Under the pieces are notes generated by a model. It worked only from the letters and a program-made list of their open reading frames with translations. It was not told the DNA's origin and searched no databases. A stretch of DNA of 64,000 nucleotides from Prorocentrum cordatum (lineage: Eukaryota; Sar; Dinophyceae; Prorocentrales; Prorocentraceae), in assembly GCA_963575745.1 (NCBI GenBank), contig CAUYUJ010008069.1, forward strand, positions 179,501 through 243,500. Reading direction: 5' to 3'. Below, one piece after another: positions 1,046 through 35,842 of the stretch. Position 1 is the stretch's first letter, and every line of letters begins with the position of its first letter. The translations under genes and the position numbers were made by a program.

Positions 1046-3905
1046 CGCGGTCTGGAGGCAAGCCTTGAGGGCTGGGTCTAATGCGAAGGCTACAGATGCG
1101 GCGGCCTCGGTTTTGGTCGATCTTTTTAAGTATAGTGGAACGATCGACCTTTGTGAGCTCCTGTATCGTTGTCGTCAATGGGACTTCCCGTTGGGAATTG
1201 CTAACCTTGCTGTGTCCATGTATCTCGAGGCCACGTGGTTCAAAGTGGCGGGATATGCTGGTGGGCCCTACTGGGCCGCGAGAGGAATCGCGGCTGGGTG
1301 CAGTTTCGCCACGACCCTCATTTGCTGCAGTTTCATGCGCGCGTGTCCCTTAAACTGTAGATCGACGATTCGGGTTTGTCTGCCACGGGCTCTAAGGCCT
1401 ACATCCTCACCCGCCTTCCTCCTGCTGCGGTGGCCCTCCATAAGGCCTTGGAGGAAGGAGTGGGAGCTGAGGTGTTTGATGATCCTGGCAAGCGTTCGTT
1501 GGTTTGCTCGTCTTTGGACTTGGGCCGCGAGCTCGGGCGGGGGCTCGGTGGTCTGGCTGGCCCCGTAGACTCCAGCGCTGGCAATTCAGTCATTGATGAT
1601 TGCGCTGGCGAGTCCCGCAGGTGCAAGGGGAGATCTAACAAGGCGAAGGCTCGCGAACGTAAATCCAGGGGATTCGGTTTTCGGCTTTCCAGGTTGCGAC
1701 CCGCCATCGGAGGGCGCATCTCTCGAACAGTTTTTGCTTCTGGGTCCTTGGCCTCGAATATTTTCTGGGCTGACGTTCGCGGGGTCACGGATCGCGGGCT
1801 GGTCACTTTGCGTTGCCAGGCGGCGTTGGTGCTCCAACCCTCAACACGTGGGCGTATCCCCACGTGCCTTTTGCTGGCTCGCCAAGGCCCGTGCTGGCCT
1901 GCGAGCGCGGCGCCCATTATCAGGGTGGTTAAGGAAAAGACCTCGCACCTCCATTTTTGCCCCCCATTCCTTTCCGCTCACGGAGCTCCGTGCTGCCTGG
2001 GAGGCAGGTTTTTTTCGGGCGAGTTCCCGCTGTGGCGATCTGTTGCTGGACCTGTTAGTGCGCTTCGGAAACCCTGTGATCGGATTTCTTGAAGCATGCC
2101 GTCGTTCGCGGTTTTGCTCACTTATCGGGGCCACAAGATCTCGTTAATTGTTTTTATGTTCCCCGTTCTTGGTTAAACCTCTTCTCCAGAAAGCTGTTCT
2201 GCGCGGCCTCGAGTGGGGCCTGGGCTCCCATTTTGACATGGCAAGCAGAGCGCGCGTTGACGGCGTCGCATCCCTTCTGAACCCGGGTATGTTTTCCCGT
2301 TCCAGAAAGTATGTATCCGTGCTCTCTTTTGTGATGTCATCTACCCCCAAACTCAGGCTGTAGTTCTGGGGCACAATATTGGCGACCTGTGCTCTGTCTG
2401 TCAGGAGGCGCGCTACACTCTAAAAGGCACAGGCTCTTGGAGTGCGCCGCCGTTGAAGATGAGCGCGCTGCTCTTGCTGAGCCTGCTGTGCGTAGACTGG
2501 CTGCGGACGCTGATGAAACTCTGGCTTGTTTTGGGGTCTTCCCCCACCCTGGAGATCTGGTTCCTGGCCCCGCCTCTTCTGGTGGCATTGTTGTGGAGTG
2601 GTATGGAGAACATGGTGATCTTTCCAGGCGCGCCCATGGAGACATTCCTGCAGATGGTTCATGCGCGCGGAAGGCCATCCACGAACTTAGTCGCGCTCGC
2701 TGGGCCTTCAGCGCGTGGTGCCGCGCTACGGGTCTCGAGAAACTCAAGGTTAGAGGCCCCGCGCGGGCTCCGTCGCCGCGGGCCCCACAGGCCGCCGAGC
2801 TTCACGCGTATAGAATTGCCTGCCAGTGGTCTAATGGCCACGGCGAATTGCTTTTAGATTGCGAGAAATGCGCTGGGTGTCACGATTACCCTTTCGAGGC
2901 CCGGTGCTCCCCGAAAAGGTCTCATTCGGGCGTTGCCCATGTCGCCTTTTCTCGCACCTGTGCTCGGTCCGTAAGGTTCGGGCTCGCCAGGGCCTGAGCG
3001 CGCGCGACGACGGTTGGGCGAGGCATTGTTGCGAAGGTAATCGCGTGGCCGACGTTCTGGTTAAACAGGCGTTAGTTCTGCGCCCGTCGCATGGCCCAGT
3101 GGTGGTTGAGAAGATCGATCACGATATGCTGGTTGCCAAAAGTGTCGGGATTTGGGCGGCCAAGGTTTTGCCATTCTGGCCGAGGCTCGACATGGGGCCC
3201 GATGTGGAGAGAACTCCCGACCCACCTTGACCTCCTGTGCTTGGGCCTACCCACACTTTGTGTTGGGTCGGCTCTTTTTGGCAGTGTCGTGAATGCCTGC
3301 GAGGCCGCAGAGGCCAGTTCAGTGCGCCACCAGTGGGTAGGCTGTGCTCCAGGTCCCTTCGAGTGCAGCCGAAGGTGCCCATGGGCCCTGGACATCGTTG
3401 CATCGTAACTGGTTGCTCTGATGGGTCATGTTTGTGCATCTGCCAACGCTGCAGTTGCATGAGTTCAGGTGCGCGCTTGGCCAATCTTGGGTATAAGTGT
3501 GCGCCTGGCAAGTCTCAGTGGAACCCGTGGTCTAATCTTCAACGTGAGCCCCATCCTTCTGTGGAGAAGGAAAGGGCCAGCGTTGACCTCGACTCGGTCT
3601 GTCCTAGTTACGCCTCCCCTGGACATGCTGCTGCCCCTGTCCTGTCTGCTCCCTTCGAGCCCGGGTGCCTGGTGGGTCCCGAGCACGGCTCTGGGACTAG
3701 GCCGCAGTCTAGTTGGCGGGATTGGGCGGGAAGTGGGTCCGCGGGTGCCAGCAGCAGCTCCTCTGGTGCGATTGAACATAGACGGGCTCGGCTTGGCCAA
3801 CTCTCGCCCTTGGAGCTGCGCAGGATCGAGGAGGAGGAAGAGGATGCCTTTTCGTTTTGCGGCGGCGATTCGCAGCCTCCTGTTGCTCGGTCCGGCGCCT
3901 CGCGC
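1046..3905 (+). pseudogene. Decayed LINE: RT, RNase H and C-terminal domain
   Basis: Relic of a dinoflagellate non-LTR retrotransposon, read in at least five frame segments. 1,046-1,330 carries the RT region before the active site (VWRQAL...DFPLGIANLAV...RGIAAGCSFATT). After a frameshift the catalytic box follows as stop-I-D-D at 1,358-1,369, where YIDD is expected. 1,376-2,340 holds the thumb and linker. 2,380-2,870 is RNase H with DGS (Asp codon 2,653), AELHA (Glu codon 2,797) and LLLDCE (Asp codon 2,857). 2,859-3,230, in another frame, has the GNRVADVLVKQA end of RNase H. From 3,237 comes the family's Cys/His-rich tail (LCWVGSFWQCRECLRGRR, later GREPHPSV-like). The 3' limit is approximate. 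The element cannot be active. Family assignment is from memory of dinoflagellate LINE proteins. Confidence 0.8.
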
Positions 3906-5340: not shown

Positions 5341-5370
5341 AAAAAAAGAGAGGGAAGGAGGGGATAGGAG

Positions 5371-6344
5371 GTAGAAATAACAGGATATGCTTGTGTCACC
5401 TTCGCCTGTGGCAAGTGCTCTTGTGGTGAAGTGCATCTCGCACCACCTTTGCCTTGATCTTCCTCTTTTCCTAGCGGTCGAGTGCTGCTCGCGTCTGTGA
5501 TCCTCCCACTCCCGATGCCCCTCTTCCTCCCTCCTGATTGGCACTGGTGCCCCAGTGAGGCGACCACAACTTTGTATGAATGCAGTACAGCAGGTGCCGA
5601 ATATTGTGATCGCTCGCGCAGCCCCTCCGCCAGCGTATGGCAACAGCTCAGCGCCTCCAAGTGCCTGCGCTCGCCTCGACGTCGGAGGAACGGCGGGTGC
5701 GAGGCGTGCGAGCCTCTCACGCCGCCGCGCTCGTGGCCGGGCTGGAACGAGTAAAAAGGGAGCGACGACGGCTGCGCGGAGCGCTCTGAGGCCTGCGACC
5801 TTGCCCCCACGGGGCAGCGCCTGTCTGACGTGCCCCTGCGTCTGCGCTGGTGGCCAGGAGCTTTTGCTCCGCGAGCCGTGCCTGCGCGAAGGCTCCCCAC
5901 GTGCGCCGTCAGAAGTTGGATCCCGAGTGCGTTGAAGTGTTGGTAGTTGCACTGGGTTTGGTCCTGTCTTTCTGTTGGGTGTCGGAGTTTCTGGTGGTAG
6001 GGTCCCGCCCATAGCTTTCCGCCCTGGCTTGCCATTGTGTGCTGGTATTTGCTCAAGGTCTCGACCATCGGATCCCGCAGTCAGTTGTTCTTGTTTGTTG
6101 CTCTGGGAGTTGTCTGGAGGCCCGCCACAAGGTCCTGCCCGCAGTTGCTACCTGTCTATTGGGTATTTGGGCTTTTGCATCGGGGCCCGCCTGTGGTTGC
6201 CTTCGTCTGTTGTGTTTACCGTCTGTTGTATTTACCGGGCCCGCCCCTGGTTTCTTGCGCTGAGAGGGTCTAGCCTTTGGTGGCCCTTGTCCGAAGGGTG
6301 TTCCAGCAGCTGCACAAAGAAGGTTTCCCATAATTGCCCATGTC
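5371..6344. other. No recognisable gene
   Basis: Moderately open frames exist on both strands but none shows a domain I recognise or convincing coding character. The part from 5,940 to 6,340 is GT-rich on the + strand and reads as hydrophobic peptides. Confidence 0.5.
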
Positions 6345-6980
6345 TGTTGGAGTGATAATTCCCAGCCGTCCTGCGGTGTTGGATCCTCGTTTTGAAGAGA
6401 CGGCGCCGCGCGCCCCCTCACCTCACCTCGCCTCCCGCCCTCCTCCCCCTCCTCCCCCTCCCCGTTGACTTTTGTTTCGTGGCCCTATAGGGAGCTCCAC
6501 CGAAGGCCCCAGTGGCTGCTCTCGCATGCGGTTCCCCCACCCAGTACAGCGCTTCGTGGCCCCACAAGGACCTCCACCGAAGGCCCCAGTGGCCGCCCTC
6601 GCTTGCGGATTCTCCGCCCAGTACTGCGTTTCGACCTGGTACAGCGCTTCGTGGCCCCACAGGGAGCTCCACCAGAGGTCCAAGTGGCTGCACTCGCATG
6701 CGGTTCCCCACCCTGTACAGCTCTTCGTGGCCCCACAGGGAGCTCCACCGAAAACCCCAGTGGCTGCACTCGCATGCGGTTTCCCCGCCCAGTACAACAA
6801 CGGTTCGACTTAGTACAGCGCTCCGTGGCCCCACAGGGAGCTCCATCAGAGGTCCAAGTAGCTGCACTCGCATGCGGTTCCCGCACCCAGTACAGCGTTT
6901 CGACCCAGTACAGCGTTTCGTGGCCGCATGGAGGGCTTCACTGAAGAGGATACCGACAACTGCGGCATTCACAACTGGAC
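6345..6980 (+). mobile_element. Family-A element: head module, dimeric array, tail module
   Basis: The head (6,350-6,440) has TTCCCAGCCGTCCTGCGGTG, TTGG and TCGTTTTGAAGAGACGGCG, followed by a C/CTCC-rich stretch. Six copies of the family-A core follow, with TTCGTGG near 6,476, 6,553, 6,649, 6,724, 6,822 (as TCCGTGG) and 6,918. Spacing alternates between about 75-77 and 96-98 bp, because every second unit carries an extra ~21 bp ending in a second TACAGCG-type motif. The tail (6,930-6,975) reads GGCTTCACTGAAGAGGATAC then CGACAACTGCGGCATTCACA. The same head and tail flank the arrays at 22.1 kb and, inverted, 24.7 kb. Whether this copy interrupts a gene is unclear. Confidence 0.8.
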
Positions 6981-9029
6981 ATGGTTGGTTCTTTCGCCAG
7001 GCTAAGTGTTGGCCCTGCCTGCCTGACCGCAGGATCTTGCCATTAATTGGCACTATTTGTTGGAATGCGCGCGAGAACCTCCAGGGGACGATTTCCCTCG
7101 GCTCCATCGCGGCACCCTCACGCCAAGGTCTGTAGGAAGAGGAGGGTCGTAATAGAAGGTGGGGAACGATGAGGATGAGGACAGGTGGAGGTTGGAAGAG
7201 GAGTATGAGGAGTATGGGGAGGAAGAGGAGGAGGTGAGGCTGAGCATGGGGAGTGTGAAGAGATCCAGGTTTTCGCTCTCCCCGACAGCACCAGTACCAA
7301 TCACTGCGAGCGCCTCGTTGCGCTCCGCCGTTATTTCTTCCGTTTCCCCGCCTCCGTCTCTTACACGCAATGTCATTATTAGTCAGCATCGTTGTTATCT
7401 TCCTTCCGCACAACACTACGAGTTGCAGATACATAATGTTTCGTTATGTTTCGGACAACTCGGCCAAACACCACTTGCTAATGTATGGTTGTGCTCCTTG
7501 CGAGTTCTGCCTGTCACCCCAGGGCTTGCACTGCGTCTGCCACATCTCGTCACAGTTGCTTATCAGCTTCTTATCTTGTCAAGGTTTCTCGCAGAGCCCA
7601 TCCGGAACGCCACTTACAACAGCCAACGAAGATTTGTCGTTGACGTGGCCCAGCTCTTTCTAGCGTTTGCCTGCTTTGTTGGCAACTGCTTAAGGCCTCT
7701 AGCAGCTTGTGGCGAGTCTAGTGAGCAACCTGTGCGCATTGATTCCTCTTAGCCTTGATTCCTGTCTTTGCTTGATGCAAGCGCTGCTCTACGGCTCGAC
7801 TCCGCCTACTCGAAGCCGCACGTTGATTGGGGGGTGGTCTCCAGGATTCGGCGTGCATTCGCGCAGACCGTAGCGCTGTTGCTTTTTGCCGCAGGCCCTT
7901 CCTTGGACTGGCGATCTGACAGCCGTGTTTTCGTTCGGCATGCACCGGTGGGACCCTCTATATGTACCGAACCATGAGCACGGTGGCCATCTCTTTTTTT
8001 ATTATTCCCTCTCCCATCCCGTCGGCCACAGGTGCGATTCTCGGTCGTCATCAATGTGAACGGCCGGCCAGAAGCCGCCACCGTTTCCCTCGGAGGGGAT
8101 CCTGGCGCCGAGGCGAACGGCTTTCAGTCTCAGAGAATGTGCTCGGAACAACGTTATCCCAGTTCATGCCGGTTTGCAGTCGTTCCCGGGCTTGTTGCGT
8201 GACATTTGATGAGATAGTCTTGTAGTTGTGAGGCGCATGCCTCTCCGTCTGCTTTAGGTGGAGGGCAGGATGACGGCAGGATGCGGACAGGGTTGACAGG
8301 GTAATGGCGGGATGAGGGTACGATGAGTGCAGGAGGAGCAATAATGAGGATACGGACGGGAGGACGAGGAGGAGGAGGAGGAGCAAAAGGAGGAGCAAAA
8401 GGAGGAAAACACGTGATGGGGGGTAGGAGTATGACACGAGGAGGAGGAGGAGGAGGAGGAGGAGGAGGAGGAGGGGAAGGAGAAGGAGAAGGAGGAGGAG
8501 GTGGAGTGGAGTGGAGTGGAGTGGATGCCTTTGCTGGTGCAAGTGCCATGATTATCAGCTAACTACCCTACTCCTCCGACTCGGACGGTTCCCGACTGTC
8601 TCGCAGCCAGCTCTGTTCGACTCGGGACCTTGGGGTGCAAACCTCTACTGATCCTGTCAAGGTACTCCCGTCCAGTCTTGGAGATGTTAAGCTCACAGGG
8701 GGTCTTTAACATTTGCAGCTGCTTATTTGCAAACGCCCCGAACGTAGTACAAAACCACACTTGAAGGGACATGTGTGTTTTCAACGTGTGTGTGTATTAT
8801 TTGCCCAGCCCCCCGCGATTTGGATTATGTCTCCTATCATGGGCGAAAGCAGAGCCCCCATCTACATTATATAACCTCGGGCACGGTGACTTCCACCACT
8901 AATCAGGCGTGCTCAGGGAAGTCGAACCTAAACACTGGAGGCACCGTCCCTTACAGTCGGCTAAAGTGCGTTGGGAGAGAAGGACCGCAGCAGCAGCAGC
9001 AGCAGCACACAGGAGGGGAGGGGAAAGTC
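6981..9029. other. Unassigned region with GGA and CAG tracts
   Basis: No gene is firmly recognised. A + strand open frame ending at 7,752 (about 110 residues after 7,370) reads like ordinary protein but matches no family I know. 8,365-8,515 is a GGA microsatellite, and TGGAG repeats lie at 8,503-8,523. 8,987-9,006 is a short CAG run directly before the 5' LTR. Confidence 0.45.
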
Positions 9030-20515: not shown

Positions 20516-21126
<611 letters not shown>

Positions 21127-21142
21127 CTAATATCCAGTCTTG

Positions 21143-21280
21143 CTCTGGAGGGAAACGTGGCCTACGGCAGAGGCTGGCAGCTGATAAACCTGAAGGTAAT
21201 CCGACAGTACCTGAAGGTAATCCGACAGTACCTGGAGGGAAACGTGGCCTGCGCCAGAGGCTGACAGCTGATCAACCTGC
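21143..21280. repeat. Imperfect direct duplication
   Basis: CTGGAGGGAAACGTGGCCTA at about 21,147 returns as CTGGAGGGAAACGTGGCCTG at about 21,233, each followed by a CAGAGGCTG/CAGCTGAT stretch. Between them the 21-bp phrase around CTGAAGGTAATCCGACAG occurs twice in tandem. Confidence 0.8.
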
Positions 21281-21302
21281 TCCATATCCTCGTTCTTTAC
21301 CA

Positions 21303-22042
21303 TTGTACCGCTCGCTGAAGCGAGACTGGGGGTCTGGAATCCTCAGATCATCGCGGGTACAGGAATACTCACACGGCGCCCGTGAGCAAGGCGTTGCTGG
21401 ACTGGATCGTTTGGCTGACGCTGGGGCGCGCGGTGATCGCCCTGGGAATCTACTTCGTGATCTCAAAAGAATCTTCGGCTGGCCTAGAGGATGTGCGCCG
21501 ATCAGTTGGATAAAATTGCCGACCAAACGAGGGCCGTCCACGCCGCATGCAGTTTTATGGCCACACGTGTTCTTCAAACATATGTTCATTGAAAGGTTGG
21601 ATATGTTTCAACAACGCTTATGCGGCCCCGGAGGCTCTTGCAAACACTTGTGGGAAGGAATGTATGATTCGACGTTCGTGCGGCGGCACCCGAAGCTCCC
21701 TCGAACAGAATGGCGCAGGACGATCCCGCTTGGTTTCCACGCTGATGATGGAGGGCTCAATAAACACGACTCGTTGTTTGGACTGTCGTGGAACAGTCTT
21801 GCTACAACAGGGGCGTCGTCGGTGCAGTCTCGTGTCCTCTTCTCGGGAATCAGAAAATCAGACATGGTACCCGAGACACTTTACATGCTGAGGTTTTTTT
21901 TTCTCGGAGCGTAAACATTCTTCCCACAGGAGAAACGCCAATGACGGATTGGCAGAACAGCGATATGTCTGATGGCGGCCTCCCACTAGCCGATGGCTGG
22001 AGAGGTCAGGTCGCCCAAGTTCCGGGCGACTGGCAGTTTTTC
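21303..22042 (+). CDS. Transposase-like dinoflagellate gene, block 1
   Basis: First coding block of a family I recognise from dinoflagellate gene models, unnamed and not searched here. Motifs: SWIKLPTKRG, PHVFFKHMF, RHPKLPRTEWRRTIPLGFHA, DDGGL, DSLFGLSWNSL, GIRKSDMVPETL. After a frame change at the T-run 21,894-21,902 it continues ILPTGETPMTDWQNSD and RGQVAQVPGDWQF. The HADDGG Asp, VDILRALDLG in block 2 and YSGEELVG in block 3 could be the D, D and E of a DDE-type transposase; that is inference. The true start is unclear, since the first ATG at 21,303 may lie inside an exon. The T-run shift may be an indel or a sequence error. The block ends where the family-A element begins. Confidence 0.6.
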
Positions 22043-23890
22043 CCGACCATCCTGTGGTGTTGGGTTTTCGTTTTGAACAGACGGTGGCCCGCGTCTCCTC
22101 TCCTCTCCTCCTCCTCCCCCTCCTCCCTCCTCCCTCCTCCATTTCGGCACACCCCTCACACGTTTCGTGGCCCCATATGGGAACTCCACCGAAGGTCCCA
22201 GTGGGTGTGCCCGCATGCGTCCCGCACACACATTTCGGCACACCCCTCACACGTTTCGTGGCCCCACAGGGAGCCCCACCGAAGGTCCCAGTGGGTGTGC
22301 CCGCATGCGTCCCGCACACCCATGTCGGCACACCCCTCACACGTTTCGTGGCCCCATAGAAAGTTCCACCGAAGGTCCCAGTGGGTGTGCCCGCATGCGT
22401 CCCGCACACCCATGTCGGCACACTCCTCACGCGCTTCGTGGCCCCATAGAGAGCTCCACCGAAGGTCCCAGTGGGTGTGCCCGCATGCGTCCCGCGCACC
22501 CATTTCGGCACACCCCTCACACGTTTCGTGGCCCCATAGGGAGCTCCACCGAAGGTCCCAGTGGGTGTGCCCGCATGCGTCCCGCACACACATGTCGGCA
22601 CACCCCTCACACGCTTCGCGGCCCCCTTATGGAGCTCCACCGAAGGTCCCAGCGGGTCTCCCCGCATGCGTCCCGCACACCCATTTCGGCACACCCCTCG
22701 CACGTTTCGTGGCCCCATAGGGAGCTCCGCCGAAGGTCCGAGTGGGTGTGCCCGCATGCGCCCCGCACACCCATTTCGGCACACCCCTCACACGTTTGCG
22801 TGGCCCCATAGGGAGCTCCACCGAAGGTCCCAGTGGGTGTGCCCGCATGCATCCCGCACACCCATGTCGGCACACCCCTCACACGTTTCGTGGCCCCATA
22901 GGGAGCTCCACCGAAGGTCCCAGTGGGTGTGCCCGCATGCGTCCCGCACACCAATTTCGGCACACCCCTCACACGTTTCGTGGCCCCGTAGGGAGCTCCA
23001 CCGAAGGCCCCAGCGGGTGTGCCCGCATGCGTCCCGCACACCAATTTCGGCACACCCCTCGCTCGCTTCGTGGCCCCATACGGAGCTCCACCGAAGGTCC
23101 GAGTGGGTGTGCCCGCATTCGTCCCGCACACCCATTTCAGCAGACCCTTCGCGCGTTTCGTGGCCCCTATAGGGAGATCCACCGAAGGTCCCAGTGGGTG
23201 TGTCCGCATGCGTTTCCCCCACCCAGTGCACCTCCGTCGGAGGCCGTCGGAGTTCCGCGCCTCGCTCGCGCGTCGTCGCTCTGCCCAGCGGCAGGAGCCT
23301 TGCCCGCTATCAGCCAGCCAGCTAGCTCTCTTTGCTGCGCGCAGCGGACGACCCGCGCGCGTCGCTGGGACCCCCCCGGGGCGACCTGCGCGCGTCGCTG
23401 GGACTCCGCGCTGCGCTGCGCCCGCAGCCTTGGACTTTTGAGTGCGCGGGCAAAGAGGGGGTAAAAGAAGGGGAGGAAGCGGGCGCGATCCTCGCGGTGG
23501 CGTCGCGGCGCGCGGGCGATGCCGTCGGGGAGTCCCGGGGAAGCTCCTTGCGGCGGCCACGCCCAGCGTCACGAGTATTCAGAGGCAGTCATTCTCAAAC
23601 TATTGTCATTCATATTCAAGTGCACCACGCTTTGTCATACTCGCATTCATGCACGTAGACTCGCTCGCACGCAGATTCCTTCACAGTCAGACGCACTCGC
23701 GCTCAGATTCACTCGCGCTCAGTCTCCCTACGTACTCAGATCAATCGTTTTCGTTCGCGTTGTGTACCACGCCACTCATTTCGGAACACCCCTAGCACGG
23801 TTCGTTGCCTCATAAGGATCGCCACCGAAACGGGGGATCGCAATTGCGGTGCTCACACCTGCATATGTTTGGGTCCTTCGTCCGGCTATT
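22030..23890 (+). mobile_element. Family-A element in the gene, forward orientation
   Basis: The head at 22,037-22,135 (TTTTTCCCGACCATCCTGTG, GTGTTGG, TCGTTTTGAACAGACGGTGG, then CTCCTC-rich) leads into twelve copies of a 90-bp unit. TTCGTGG recurs near 22,164, 22,255, 22,345 and so on to 23,157. The spacer is GTGTGCCCGCATGCG...CACACCCATTTCGGCACACC. Bases 23,221-23,775 are unrelated and include duplicated GCGCGTCGCTGGGAC and a run of ACTCGC(G)CTCAGATTC repeats. One degenerate unit and the tail (GGGGGATCGCAATTGCGGTG, CTCACACCTGC) follow to about 23,870. It separates coding blocks GDWQF and FCQAFYFAQWN, which would normally be adjacent. Confidence 0.8.
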
Positions 23891-24660
23891 TGTTTTGCCA
23901 AGCGTTCTATTTTGCGCAGTGGAACTCGGCGGATGCGATGTGCCAACTTTGCAGGGCATCGAACGCGCATCGCGCAAGGGCATGGTACGACGTGGGCTCA
24001 GAAGCAGGGCGGAGGGAAACAGTATGGGCCCACGAAACATACGTGGCCCATCTGGCCTTTCATGGCCTGCCCGCGCCTGCTTTCTTCCAGCCCAACCATG
24101 GCATCACCGGTTAAAGATTGGAAAACGTGATGGTCGACATCTTGCGCGCGCTCGATTTGGGCATGACCGCTCATGCCATTGGGAGCGCGACGTTTGCATT
24201 TGCATGTTTGCGAAAGAAGTTCGGCGGAACCGCGTGCGAGGGGGGCGCAGCGAGGCTGGCCAAGTATTTCAAAGAATGGCGCGTGCAGACTGGATCCAAT
24301 TCTCGCATCAGAGAGGTTTTAACATTGCGCAGGCTCCGCGCTGACAAGGGCTGGGCAACGTTGAAGGTGCATGGCGCCGCGACGAGGCATTTGACATCAG
24401 TCGCAGCGCACGTGCTTGTCCAATTTGCAGACTTTTGATGACCCGCATTGGGGCGTTCACGATCGACCTTCTCTTGCTGCGCGTCAATTGCTCGACTGCT
24501 TTTACGAGAATGAAAACAGAAAGCTTAAACATGCGCGAGGCCGTTCAAACAGAGCTCGAGACTCTCGGCATCCAGTTCACTTCTATCTACGGCAAGCTCT
24601 CCACTTGGAGCTTTTCGAAAAAAAATATCCTGGCGAAGGGCCCAACCTTGCGCAGTTGTG
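23891..24660 (+). CDS. Transposase-like gene, block 2
   Basis: Middle coding block, in three frame segments. 23,880-24,113: FCQAFYFAQWNSADAMCQLC (a C-x2-C pair), then ETVWAHETYVAHLAFHGLP. 24,118-24,438: VMVDILRALDLGMTAHAIG, CLRKKFGG, LAKYFKEWRVQT, LTLRRLRADKGWATLKVHGA, ATRHLTSVAAHVLVQFAD. 24,416-24,657: DDPHWGVHDRPSLAARQLLD, CFYENENRKLK, LFEKKYPGEGPNLA. Order and spacing match the family. The shifts at 24,113 and 24,438 would each break the protein unless they are splice events or sequence errors, so this copy is probably a pseudogene. The block ends at the direct repeat CTTGCGC (24,647-24,653), where the inverted family-A element starts. Confidence 0.6.
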
Positions 24661-26246
24661 GGCGCCGCAATTGTGAATATCTTCTTCGGTGAAGCTTCCG
24701 ATGGGGACACGAAGGGCTGCGCTGGGTGGGGGGGGGCGCATGCGGGCGGCGCCGCTGGGGCCGTCGGTGGAGCTCCCGATGCGGCCGCGAAGCGCTGTGC
24801 CCCCCGTCAGCTTTTCCAAGCGAAACGCCTTTGGTGGAGCTTCCTATAGGGCCACGAAAGGTGTGAGTGGTGTGCCGAAATGGGCGTGCGGGGCGCATGT
24901 GGGCACACCCACTGGGATCTTCGGTGGAGCTCCCTATGGGGCCACGAAACGTGTGAGTGGTGTGCCGAAATGGGTGTGCGGGGCGCATGCGGGCACACCC
25001 ACTGGGACCTTCGGTGGAGCTCCCGATGGGGCCACGAAACGTGCGAGGGGTGTGCCGAAATGTGTGTGCGGGACGCAAGCGGGCGCACCCACTGGGACCT
25101 TCGGTGGAGCTCCGTATGGGGCCACGAAACGTGCGAGGGGTGTGCCGAAATTGGTGTGCGGGACGCATGCGGGCACACCCACTTGGGACCTTCGGTGGAG
25201 GTCCGTATGGGGCCACGAAACGTGCGAAGGGTGTGCCGAAATGTGTGTGCGGGGCGCATGCGGGCACACCCATTGGGACCTTCGGTGGAGCTCCCTATGG
25301 GGCCACGAAACGTGTGAAGGGGTGGGTGTGCGGGGCGCGTGCGGGCACGCCCTCTGGGGCCTTCGGTGGAGCTCCCTATGGGGCCACGAAGCGTGTGAGG
25401 GGTGTGCCGAAATTGGTGTGCGGGACGCATGCGGGCGCACCCGCTGAGACCTTCGGTGGAGCTGCCTATGGGGCCGCGAAACGTGAGAGGGGTGTGCCGA
25501 AATGTGTGCGTGTGCGTGCGTGGGGCGCAGGCGGGCGCGCCCACTGGGACCTTCGGCGGGGCTCCCTATGGGGCCACGAAGCGTGTGAGTGGTGTGCCGA
25601 AATGAGTGTGCGGGACGCATGCGGGCGCGCCCGCTGGGACCTTCGGTGGAGCTCCCTATGGGGCCACGAAGCGTGCGAGGGGTGTGCCGAAATGGGTGTG
25701 CGGGACGCATGCGGGCACGCCCATTGGGGCCTTCGGTGGGGCTTCCTATGGGGCCACGAAACATGTGAAGGGTGTGCCGACATGGGAATGGGGGGCGCAT
25801 GCGGGCGCACCCACTGGGACTTTCTGTGGAGCTCCCTACGGGGCCACTAAGCGTGTGAGTGGTGTGCCGAAATGGGTGCGCGGGACGCATGCGGGCACGC
25901 CCATTGGGGCCTTCGGTGGAGCTTCCTATGGGGCCACGAAGCGTATGAAGGGTGTGCCGAAATGGGTGTGCGGGGCGCATGCGGGCACGCCCACTGGGAC
26001 CTTCGGTGGAGCTCCCTATGGGGCCACGAAACGCGCGAGGGGTGTGCCGAAATTGGTGTGCGGGACGCATGCGGGCACACCCACTGGGACCTTCGGTGGA
26101 GCTCATGAAGCGTGTGAGTTGCGTGCCGAAATGGGCGTGCGGGACGCATGCGGGAGGAGAGGAGGAGAGGAGACGCGGCCCACCGTCTCTTCAAGACGAG
26201 GACCCAACACCACAGGATGGTATGGAAAAAACCCAGGGCATGGGAG
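24654..26246 (-). mobile_element. Family-A element in the gene, reverse orientation
   Basis: Reverse complement of the same design. The tail (CGCCGCAATTGTGAATATC) is at 24,658-24,690. About 16 units of mostly 90 bp run from 24,700 to 26,110, with GCCACGAA near 24,851, 24,941, 25,031, 25,121, 25,212 and so on. The head (GAGACGCGGCCCACCGTCTC, GAGGACCCAACACCACAGG, ATGGTATGGAAAAAACC) is at 26,165-26,235. Single units deviate: one is 9-10 bp short near 25,320 and one 10 bp long near 25,510. CTTGCGC at 24,647-24,653 is repeated at 26,247-26,253. Removing everything between the repeats plus one copy joins the codons in frame. Confidence 0.8.
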
Positions 26247-26475
26247 CTTGCGCCAAAGCTTCACATGTTTTCTACCACTTGGTCATGCAGTCGATGCAAT
26301 TTGGGGGCCCGGCCTATTGGTGGACATACTCGGGCGAAGAGTTGGTGGGGCGCCTGATCAGAATACCACGCGCAGTTCATCCGACCACGATTGCAGAGCC
26401 CACGCTGTGCAAATGGGCGCATTGCGTTTTCGACGAGATATCGATGGATCTCGAAGTGGGCACTTGGAGCTGATC
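26247..26475 (+). CDS. Transposase-like gene, block 3
   Basis: Last coding block: LAPKLHMF in one frame, then, after a 1-base shift at 26,263-26,270, YHLVMQSMQFGGPAYWWTYS, GEELVGRLIRIPRAVHP and EPTLCKWAHCVFDEISMD, ending at TGA 26,470-26,472. The P-K-L-H-x-F and Y-x-x-E-x-L-V-G motifs are characteristic of the family's C-terminus. The Glu in GEELVG is my candidate for the third acidic residue of a DDE triad (inference). Confidence 0.6.
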
Positions 26476-35820: not shown

Positions 35821-35842
35821 TCCGTAGCCGTTTTGGCTCATG
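35821..35842 (+). other. Spliced-leader relic
   Basis: CGTAGCCGTTTTGGCTCATG, preceded by TC, matches the 22-nt dinoflagellate spliced leader (CGTAGCCATTTTGGCTCAAG after DC) at 20 of 22 positions; the changes are A to G and A to T. Trans-spliced leaders occur in mRNA, so a genomic copy directly before an ORF indicates that the gene, or an ancestor, came from reverse-transcribed mRNA. Confidence 0.75.

Follow-up and report, generated by a model that had tools for sequence, protein, structure and literature searches.

Introduction

The closest described relatives in layout of the array-bearing element treated here, which twice interrupts one transposase-like gene copy in a 64,000-nucleotide stretch of the Prorocentrum cordatum genome (contig CAUYUJ010008069.1, positions 179,501–243,500; hereafter, the window), are the non-autonomous Helentrons, and the gene-interrupting elements nearest to it are the introners. 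In the cited sections of its description, Cg_HINE of the Pacific oyster has a left flank with a microsatellite, satellite-like central repeats in fixed orientation, and a right flank; it bears a subterminal and an internal inverted repeat and inserts at T-rich targets, with known empty sites and no target duplication (PMC7492417). The P. cordatum element shares these traits (the lack of duplication in most copies); it differs in its dinoflagellate host and in the right flank, where no palindrome was found, and the two are likened by layout, not by sequence. DINE-1/HINE elements of Drosophila and a mite, as far as the cited part of the source goes, insert beside TT, have a variable number of Ts at their ends, and combine subterminal inverted repeats with central tandem repeats, all as seen here (PMC4067079). 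Their subterminal repeat is 13 bp long and accompanied by a 3′ stem-loop, whereas that of the P. cordatum element is 9 bp with no stem-loop detected, and 2/18 copies of the latter have 6-bp direct repeats.

Introners are likewise interspersed, with a short inverted repeat near both ends (PMC9860276, PMC7789003, PMC11453091, in the parts used here). However, they are defined as introns of genes, part of their families have 3–9 bp target duplications, and the family median lengths are 30–654 nt, compared to 0.67–2.4 kb for the P. cordatum copies (PMC9860276, PMC7789003). In the library searched, no paper treats helitron, dinoflagellate, and Prorocentrum together; we do not conclude from this that the element is undescribed.

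We consider it likely that the two interruptions, e1 and e2, are independent insertions of one array-bearing mobile family with Helentron-like movement, and that their host is a degenerate transposase-like copy. The insertion of mobile elements into a pseudogene is the firmest part of this account and is very probable; towards a Helentron-like mechanism we only lean.

Two Insertions in a Degenerate Gene Copy

Empty sites in paralogues of the host gene allow the insertions to be read directly. From 28 host relatives, 20 were fetched and examined, and eight were left out. When positions 22,036–23,888 (site 1) are removed, the alignment runs through the junction in 20/20 relatives, gapless in 17 and with 1–2 gap columns within 20 nt in three, at 4–8 mismatches per 40 columns. 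When positions 24,624–26,231 (site 2) are removed, the alignment is gapless in 18/20 relatives, at 15–18 mismatches per 40 columns; given this divergence, it is the equal length, together with the protein reading (SFSKKPRAWELAPKL vs. SFSKHLKIWKLAPKL), that fixes the exact border at site 2. L009 and L023, truncated or deleted there, do not align across site 2 and were not scored as empty. Neither insertion is present in any testable relative (20 at site 1, 18 at site 2). Both empty sites are T-runs in element orientation (for e2, A-runs on the + strand), and neither of them shows any duplicated base as long as the T-run is assigned to the element itself.

Element e1 (22,036–23,888, + strand, borders accurate to 1 nt) comprises a T-run (22,037–22,041), a head, an array in which a 90-bp unit recurs about 12 times (22,139–23,213), a unique block, and a tail. 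Element e2 (24,624–26,231, − strand) is reversed, with the + strand A-run end corresponding to the T-run and the borders uncertain by the length of the A-runs; its array repeats the 90-bp unit about 14 times (24,828–26,104). Heads and tails are profile hits, and the arrays were delimited with Tandem Repeats Finder (TRF). The sequence-only reading of this DNA had filled the two gaps with related head–array–tail elements in opposite orientations, forward at the first gap and reversed at the second, and this is confirmed.

The borders are a different matter, as the paralogues place the junctions at about 22,036/23,888 and 24,624/26,231, not where they had been drawn. The strings then proposed as repeats at the insertion points exist, CTTGCGC at 24,647 and 26,247 and GTTTTTCC and GTTTTGCC at the first gap, but neither pair is a target duplication. 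The left CTTGCGC lies inside the tail of e2 and corresponds to an internal part of it (consensus reverse complement CATATGC); the pair is a match between element tail and host sequence. The true borders are T-runs, read as A-runs on the opposite strand. The reading frame is indeed continuous across both gaps once e1 and e2 are removed, at the paralogue-defined borders rather than at the joins suggested before.

The host gene copy consists of three + strand blocks of homology in collinear order (tblastn, query P0002), with a total span of 21,144–26,467, as expected from the three ordered blocks of one family originally recognized. Block 1 (21,144–22,035) begins at residue 19 of P0002, block 2 occupies 23,889–24,623, and block 3 (26,232–26,467) contains the C-terminus. 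The tblastn segments cover 21,144–22,042, 23,890–24,508, the sequence from 24,510 to the second element in another frame, and 26,264–26,467. Six frames follow each other in the order +1, +3, +2, +3, +1, +3; less the change accounted for by the removal of e1, this yields four frameshifts, between 21,890 and 21,899 in block 1, near 24,430 and near 24,509 in block 2, and near 26,264–26,275 in block 3. Some of them are in homopolymers, where an assembly error is possible; the in-frame TAA at 24,112–24,114 in block 2 is not. The frame formerly read up to the second gap (...ENENRKLKHARG...GPNLAQ) is homologous only to about 24,508, and beyond this point the homology is found in another frame (...SIYGKLSTWSFSKK). 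The host copy is a decayed pseudogene: the three blocks are collinear as parts of one gene, but its four frameshifts and stop codon had gone unmentioned.

Dispersal and Anatomy of the Element Family

We searched 4.128 Gb of the P. cordatum genome (21,875 contigs) with a head query of 66 bases, which gave 1,118 first-look candidates, 40 of them scored. All 40 match at E ≤ 1.8e-18 with 94–100% identity, on 40 contigs, e2 of the window included; the list is incomplete, as e1 is missing from it. Of the other 39 matches, 20 were retrieved as long sequences and the remaining 19 just around the left border, the fetched copies being the top matches to a query that included T6. The left border is identical in 20/20 long copies, which start with T6CC(C/A)NACCATCCTGTGGTGTTGGG, and their flanks are dissimilar by eye. 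A tail (...CATATGGTTGGGTCCTTCGCCAGG(C/A/G)TAA, or a variant) is located 0.67–2.4 kb 3′ of the head in 18/20 copies; L033 and L040 have no tail within the 3.3 kb examined. The head and tail pair that the sequence-only reading proposed to seek throughout the genome is thus found, and the 18 complete dispersed copies, along with the empty sites, uphold its suggestion of mobile insertion in both orientations. Judged by these sequence comparisons, the element family is real, mobile, and dispersed. It is not known to code for protein.

Each of the 18 complete copies has head, array, and tail in this order, with the repeat cores pointing one way. In 17/18 copies, the best array period is near 90 or one of its multiples (e.g., 179), the exception being L038 (387 and 177). 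A pyrimidine-rich stretch (fraction 0.77–0.98) lies 3′ of the head in the 18 copies, and the end sequences TTTTTTCCCAACCATCC and CGCCAGGCTAA mark the family. The window contains a third and shorter copy, e3 (6,356–7,005, + strand), with a head at 6,358–6,417 and a tail at 6,954–7,005 (profile hits). A fourth lineage, e4, in which about two repeat units can be made out by eye, is found upstream of the open reading frame (ORF) in 14/20 host relatives. With the short e3 and the two units of e4, the array length evidently varies within the family.

The consensus ends contain a 9-bp subterminal inverted repeat (5′ CCCAACCAT, 3′ ATGGTTGGG), which arose by chance in three of 20,000 trials when the tail consensus was shuffled. 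The 9-mer is exact in 15/22 tails, and in 16/22 cases the copy's own head and tail agree in at least eight of the nine positions. This repeat came to light only with more copies than e1–e4; in each of these four taken singly, local alignment scores for terminal inverted repeats are at or below the 95% level of shuffles. A second inverted repeat, GTTGGG, is present in 22/24 heads, and the hairpin fold of the head has a z-score of −2.3 for the first 27 nt and −0.8 for 45 nt.

Two further arrangements were observed. A 112-bp tandem array at positions 5–1,038 of the window has the core TTCGTGGCCCCA..GGAGCTCCACCGAAGG in common with the element arrays; it is cut by the window start and has no recognized tail. 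In L031, another element's tail (positions 130–179) stops about 75 bases 5′ of the head of this copy, possibly two elements side by side.

Target Sites and Mode of Movement

The right flank starts with TT in 16/18 copies (the right border was placed by hand in three of the 18, which have an altered 3′ end). Setting the T-run apart, no direct repeat is seen at the border in 16/18 copies, and the longest exact direct repeat among the 18 is 6 bp. In the 19 further copies, the T-run is 6–9 long and preceded by C (7), G (6), or A (6).

The traits characteristic of HINE/DINE-1 elements are largely present: the T-rich target, the subterminal inverted repeat and the second one in the left flank, the microsatellite-like stretch of the left flank, and the oriented central repeats. 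On target duplication, which such elements lack, the picture is mixed: none is seen beyond the T-run at e1, at e2, and in 16/18 copies, but the remaining two have 6 bp, more than chance. By analogy, the element appears to work most like a non-autonomous Helentron, which it resembles without being classed as one. The history of the locus would then be as follows: e1 and e2 entered, in two separate events, one copy of a multicopy transposase-like gene, now degenerate; they would have moved as non-autonomous Helentrons of the HINE/DINE-1 type, with a rolling-circle or single-strand intermediate provided in trans and with T-rich sites as targets; and the central 90-bp repeats may grow and shrink while carried along.

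Several observations weigh against this account. In two copies, L038 and L048, 6 bp are directly repeated at the border, and since at least four matching bases occur in just 0.3% of mismatched flank pairs, these repeats are above chance. T-runs flank both sides, with 2–6 Ts matching in 16/18 copies; due to these matches, single copies cannot separate duplication of a T-run from a T-run carried by the element, and the evidence for the latter comes from the two paralogue empty sites. There are few Ts at the left border of e3 and e4, and the T-run length is biased, as the copies were ranked by a query containing T6. Finally, the inverted repeat is short, and no palindrome is seen at the 3′ end (tail consensus fold, z-scores 0.10 and 0.17).

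Some of these points would suit a retroposon resembling a short interspersed nuclear element (SINE) and lying in the opposite orientation, with the T-run as its poly(A) tail and target-primed insertion at A/T-rich sites. Read on the opposite strand, the fetched copies terminate in at least six As, mostly against A-rich DNA, and besides the two 6-bp repeats a loose direct repeat is visible by eye in L046. Target duplications of SINEs and other poly(A) retroposons are variable and typically 7–20 bp long, but no duplication of such length is seen in the 18 copies, and 16 of them, as well as the e1 and e2 sites, show none beyond the T-run. Moreover, the copies are 0.67–2.4 kb long with large internal arrays, the tail, i.e., the would-be 5′ end, is kept in 18/20, indicating little 5′ truncation, and inverted subterminal repeats are not expected in a retroposon. 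We regard this origin as unlikely.

Less probable still is a non-autonomous DNA transposon of the cut-and-paste kind, which an enzyme with the RAG1/Transib fold, such as one from the host family, might have moved. The 9-bp subterminal inverted repeat, the two copies with 6-bp direct repeats, and the presence, in the same genome, of a multicopy family of transposase fold with long open frames are in line with it; however, at the 3′ end the inverted repeat stops short of the terminus, and there is no duplication of fixed length beyond the T-run.

If the Helentron-like account holds, the element would be a concrete vehicle by which satellite-like arrays spread through this giant genome of a dinoflagellate. 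Tentatively, a dinoflagellate Helentron-like lineage, probably of hundreds of copies or more, may be spreading 90-bp satellite arrays in this 4-Gb genome, and some published introner calls may be such insertions, or some copies may be truly spliced.

Splicing and the Introner Definition

The sequence-only reading likened the elements to introners. On this explanation, they would carry or recruit splice sites and be removed from the mRNA, the three blocks being exons of one working gene. Both e1 and e2 are removable with the frame kept, and both orientations occur. In P. cordatum, splice donors are GT, GC, or GA and acceptors are mostly AGG, and introner elements are recognized by inverted repeats of 8–20 nt and direct repeats of 3–5 nt lying no more than 30 bases from the intron ends (PMC10666404, in the sections cited). 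With its 9-bp inverted repeat, and with T-runs as direct repeats within 30 nt of both borders, the family would fit this definition wherever a gene model treats a copy as an intron; introner counts based on repeats need splice evidence.

At e1, none of the 28 GT/GC/GA...AG pairs within 30–40 nt of the borders restores the exact empty-site length; nine keep the frame, with a length change of −57 to +9 nt (the nearest, 3 nt less or more). At e2, 18/66 pairs keep the frame, and the only pair with zero net change replaces host codons. By chance alone, a third of the pairs would keep the frame, and the observed numbers do not exceed this. Inexact pairs do not by themselves exclude an introner, as published families at times add or delete codons (PMC9860276, cited part).

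A CAG|G acceptor-like motif is present at the 3′ end of 15/18 copies but is lost in e1 (CGTCCGG), and a G|T6 donor joined to CAG|G would add a net 4 nt. A GT donor in the 5′ end of the element was considered and rejected: G precedes T6 in all of the first 20 copies due to their ranking by a query containing G, while the base before the T-run varies in the 19 further copies, hence no donor is built in. Joined flanks of 16 copies (L036 and L043, whose right flank is too short, were left out) have a mean open frame of 377 nt, vs. 370 nt for mismatched flanks, a low-power comparison that is uninformative as a sign of genic location.

With a host that has four frameshifts and a stop codon where a functional gene is expected, no target duplication at the repeats once claimed, no length-exact pair at e1, and a variable base before the T-run, intron-making by e1 and e2 is not supported by the sequence, and the introner account of this locus is very unlikely.

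Host Family

The host family is multicopy in the P. cordatum genome, with long open frames in some copies. Residues D308, C328, and C331 are invariant, and D213, H566, H570, and E590 nearly so. The structural model has the RNase H strand order, and an acidic triad with the CxxC/HxxxH motif of DDE transposases; the comparison used the residue spacing of RAG1 and the defining motif of RAG1/Transib/CMC-type enzymes. The family is predicted to fold like RAG1/Transib transposases; compared with RAG1, Transib, and P-element type transposases, its sequence identity is about 10% and its Foldseek TM score about 0.4. Pfam gave no match above the cut-off for the host fragments or a full-length relative, and a homologue search with a 177-aa host fragment gave no match; two PDB sequence matches to fimbrillin (E 0.08–0.1) were taken as chance. 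As a transposase-like family with a putative RAG1-type fold and long open copies, it deserves study of its own.

In 16/20 host relatives (including L011, at position 3062, L027, and L028), relics resembling the spliced leader lie 5′ of the ORF, with up to three mismatches to the 21-mer that we take as its reference sequence; such relics are expected for retroposed mRNAs. Elsewhere in the window, a lone string of this kind, with two mismatches, is found at 35,822 on the + strand. Just 5′ of the start of the pseudogene homology, positions 20,520–21,129 are occupied by a (TAC)n microsatellite (TRF). A further insertion of 0.8–1.0 kb, absent from L026–L028 and the window copy, was observed near the C-terminal codons of host relatives such as L010, L011, and L015 (in gene-oriented L010, at about 5365–6272), with CCACCAGCCC and GGGCTGGTGG near its two ends.

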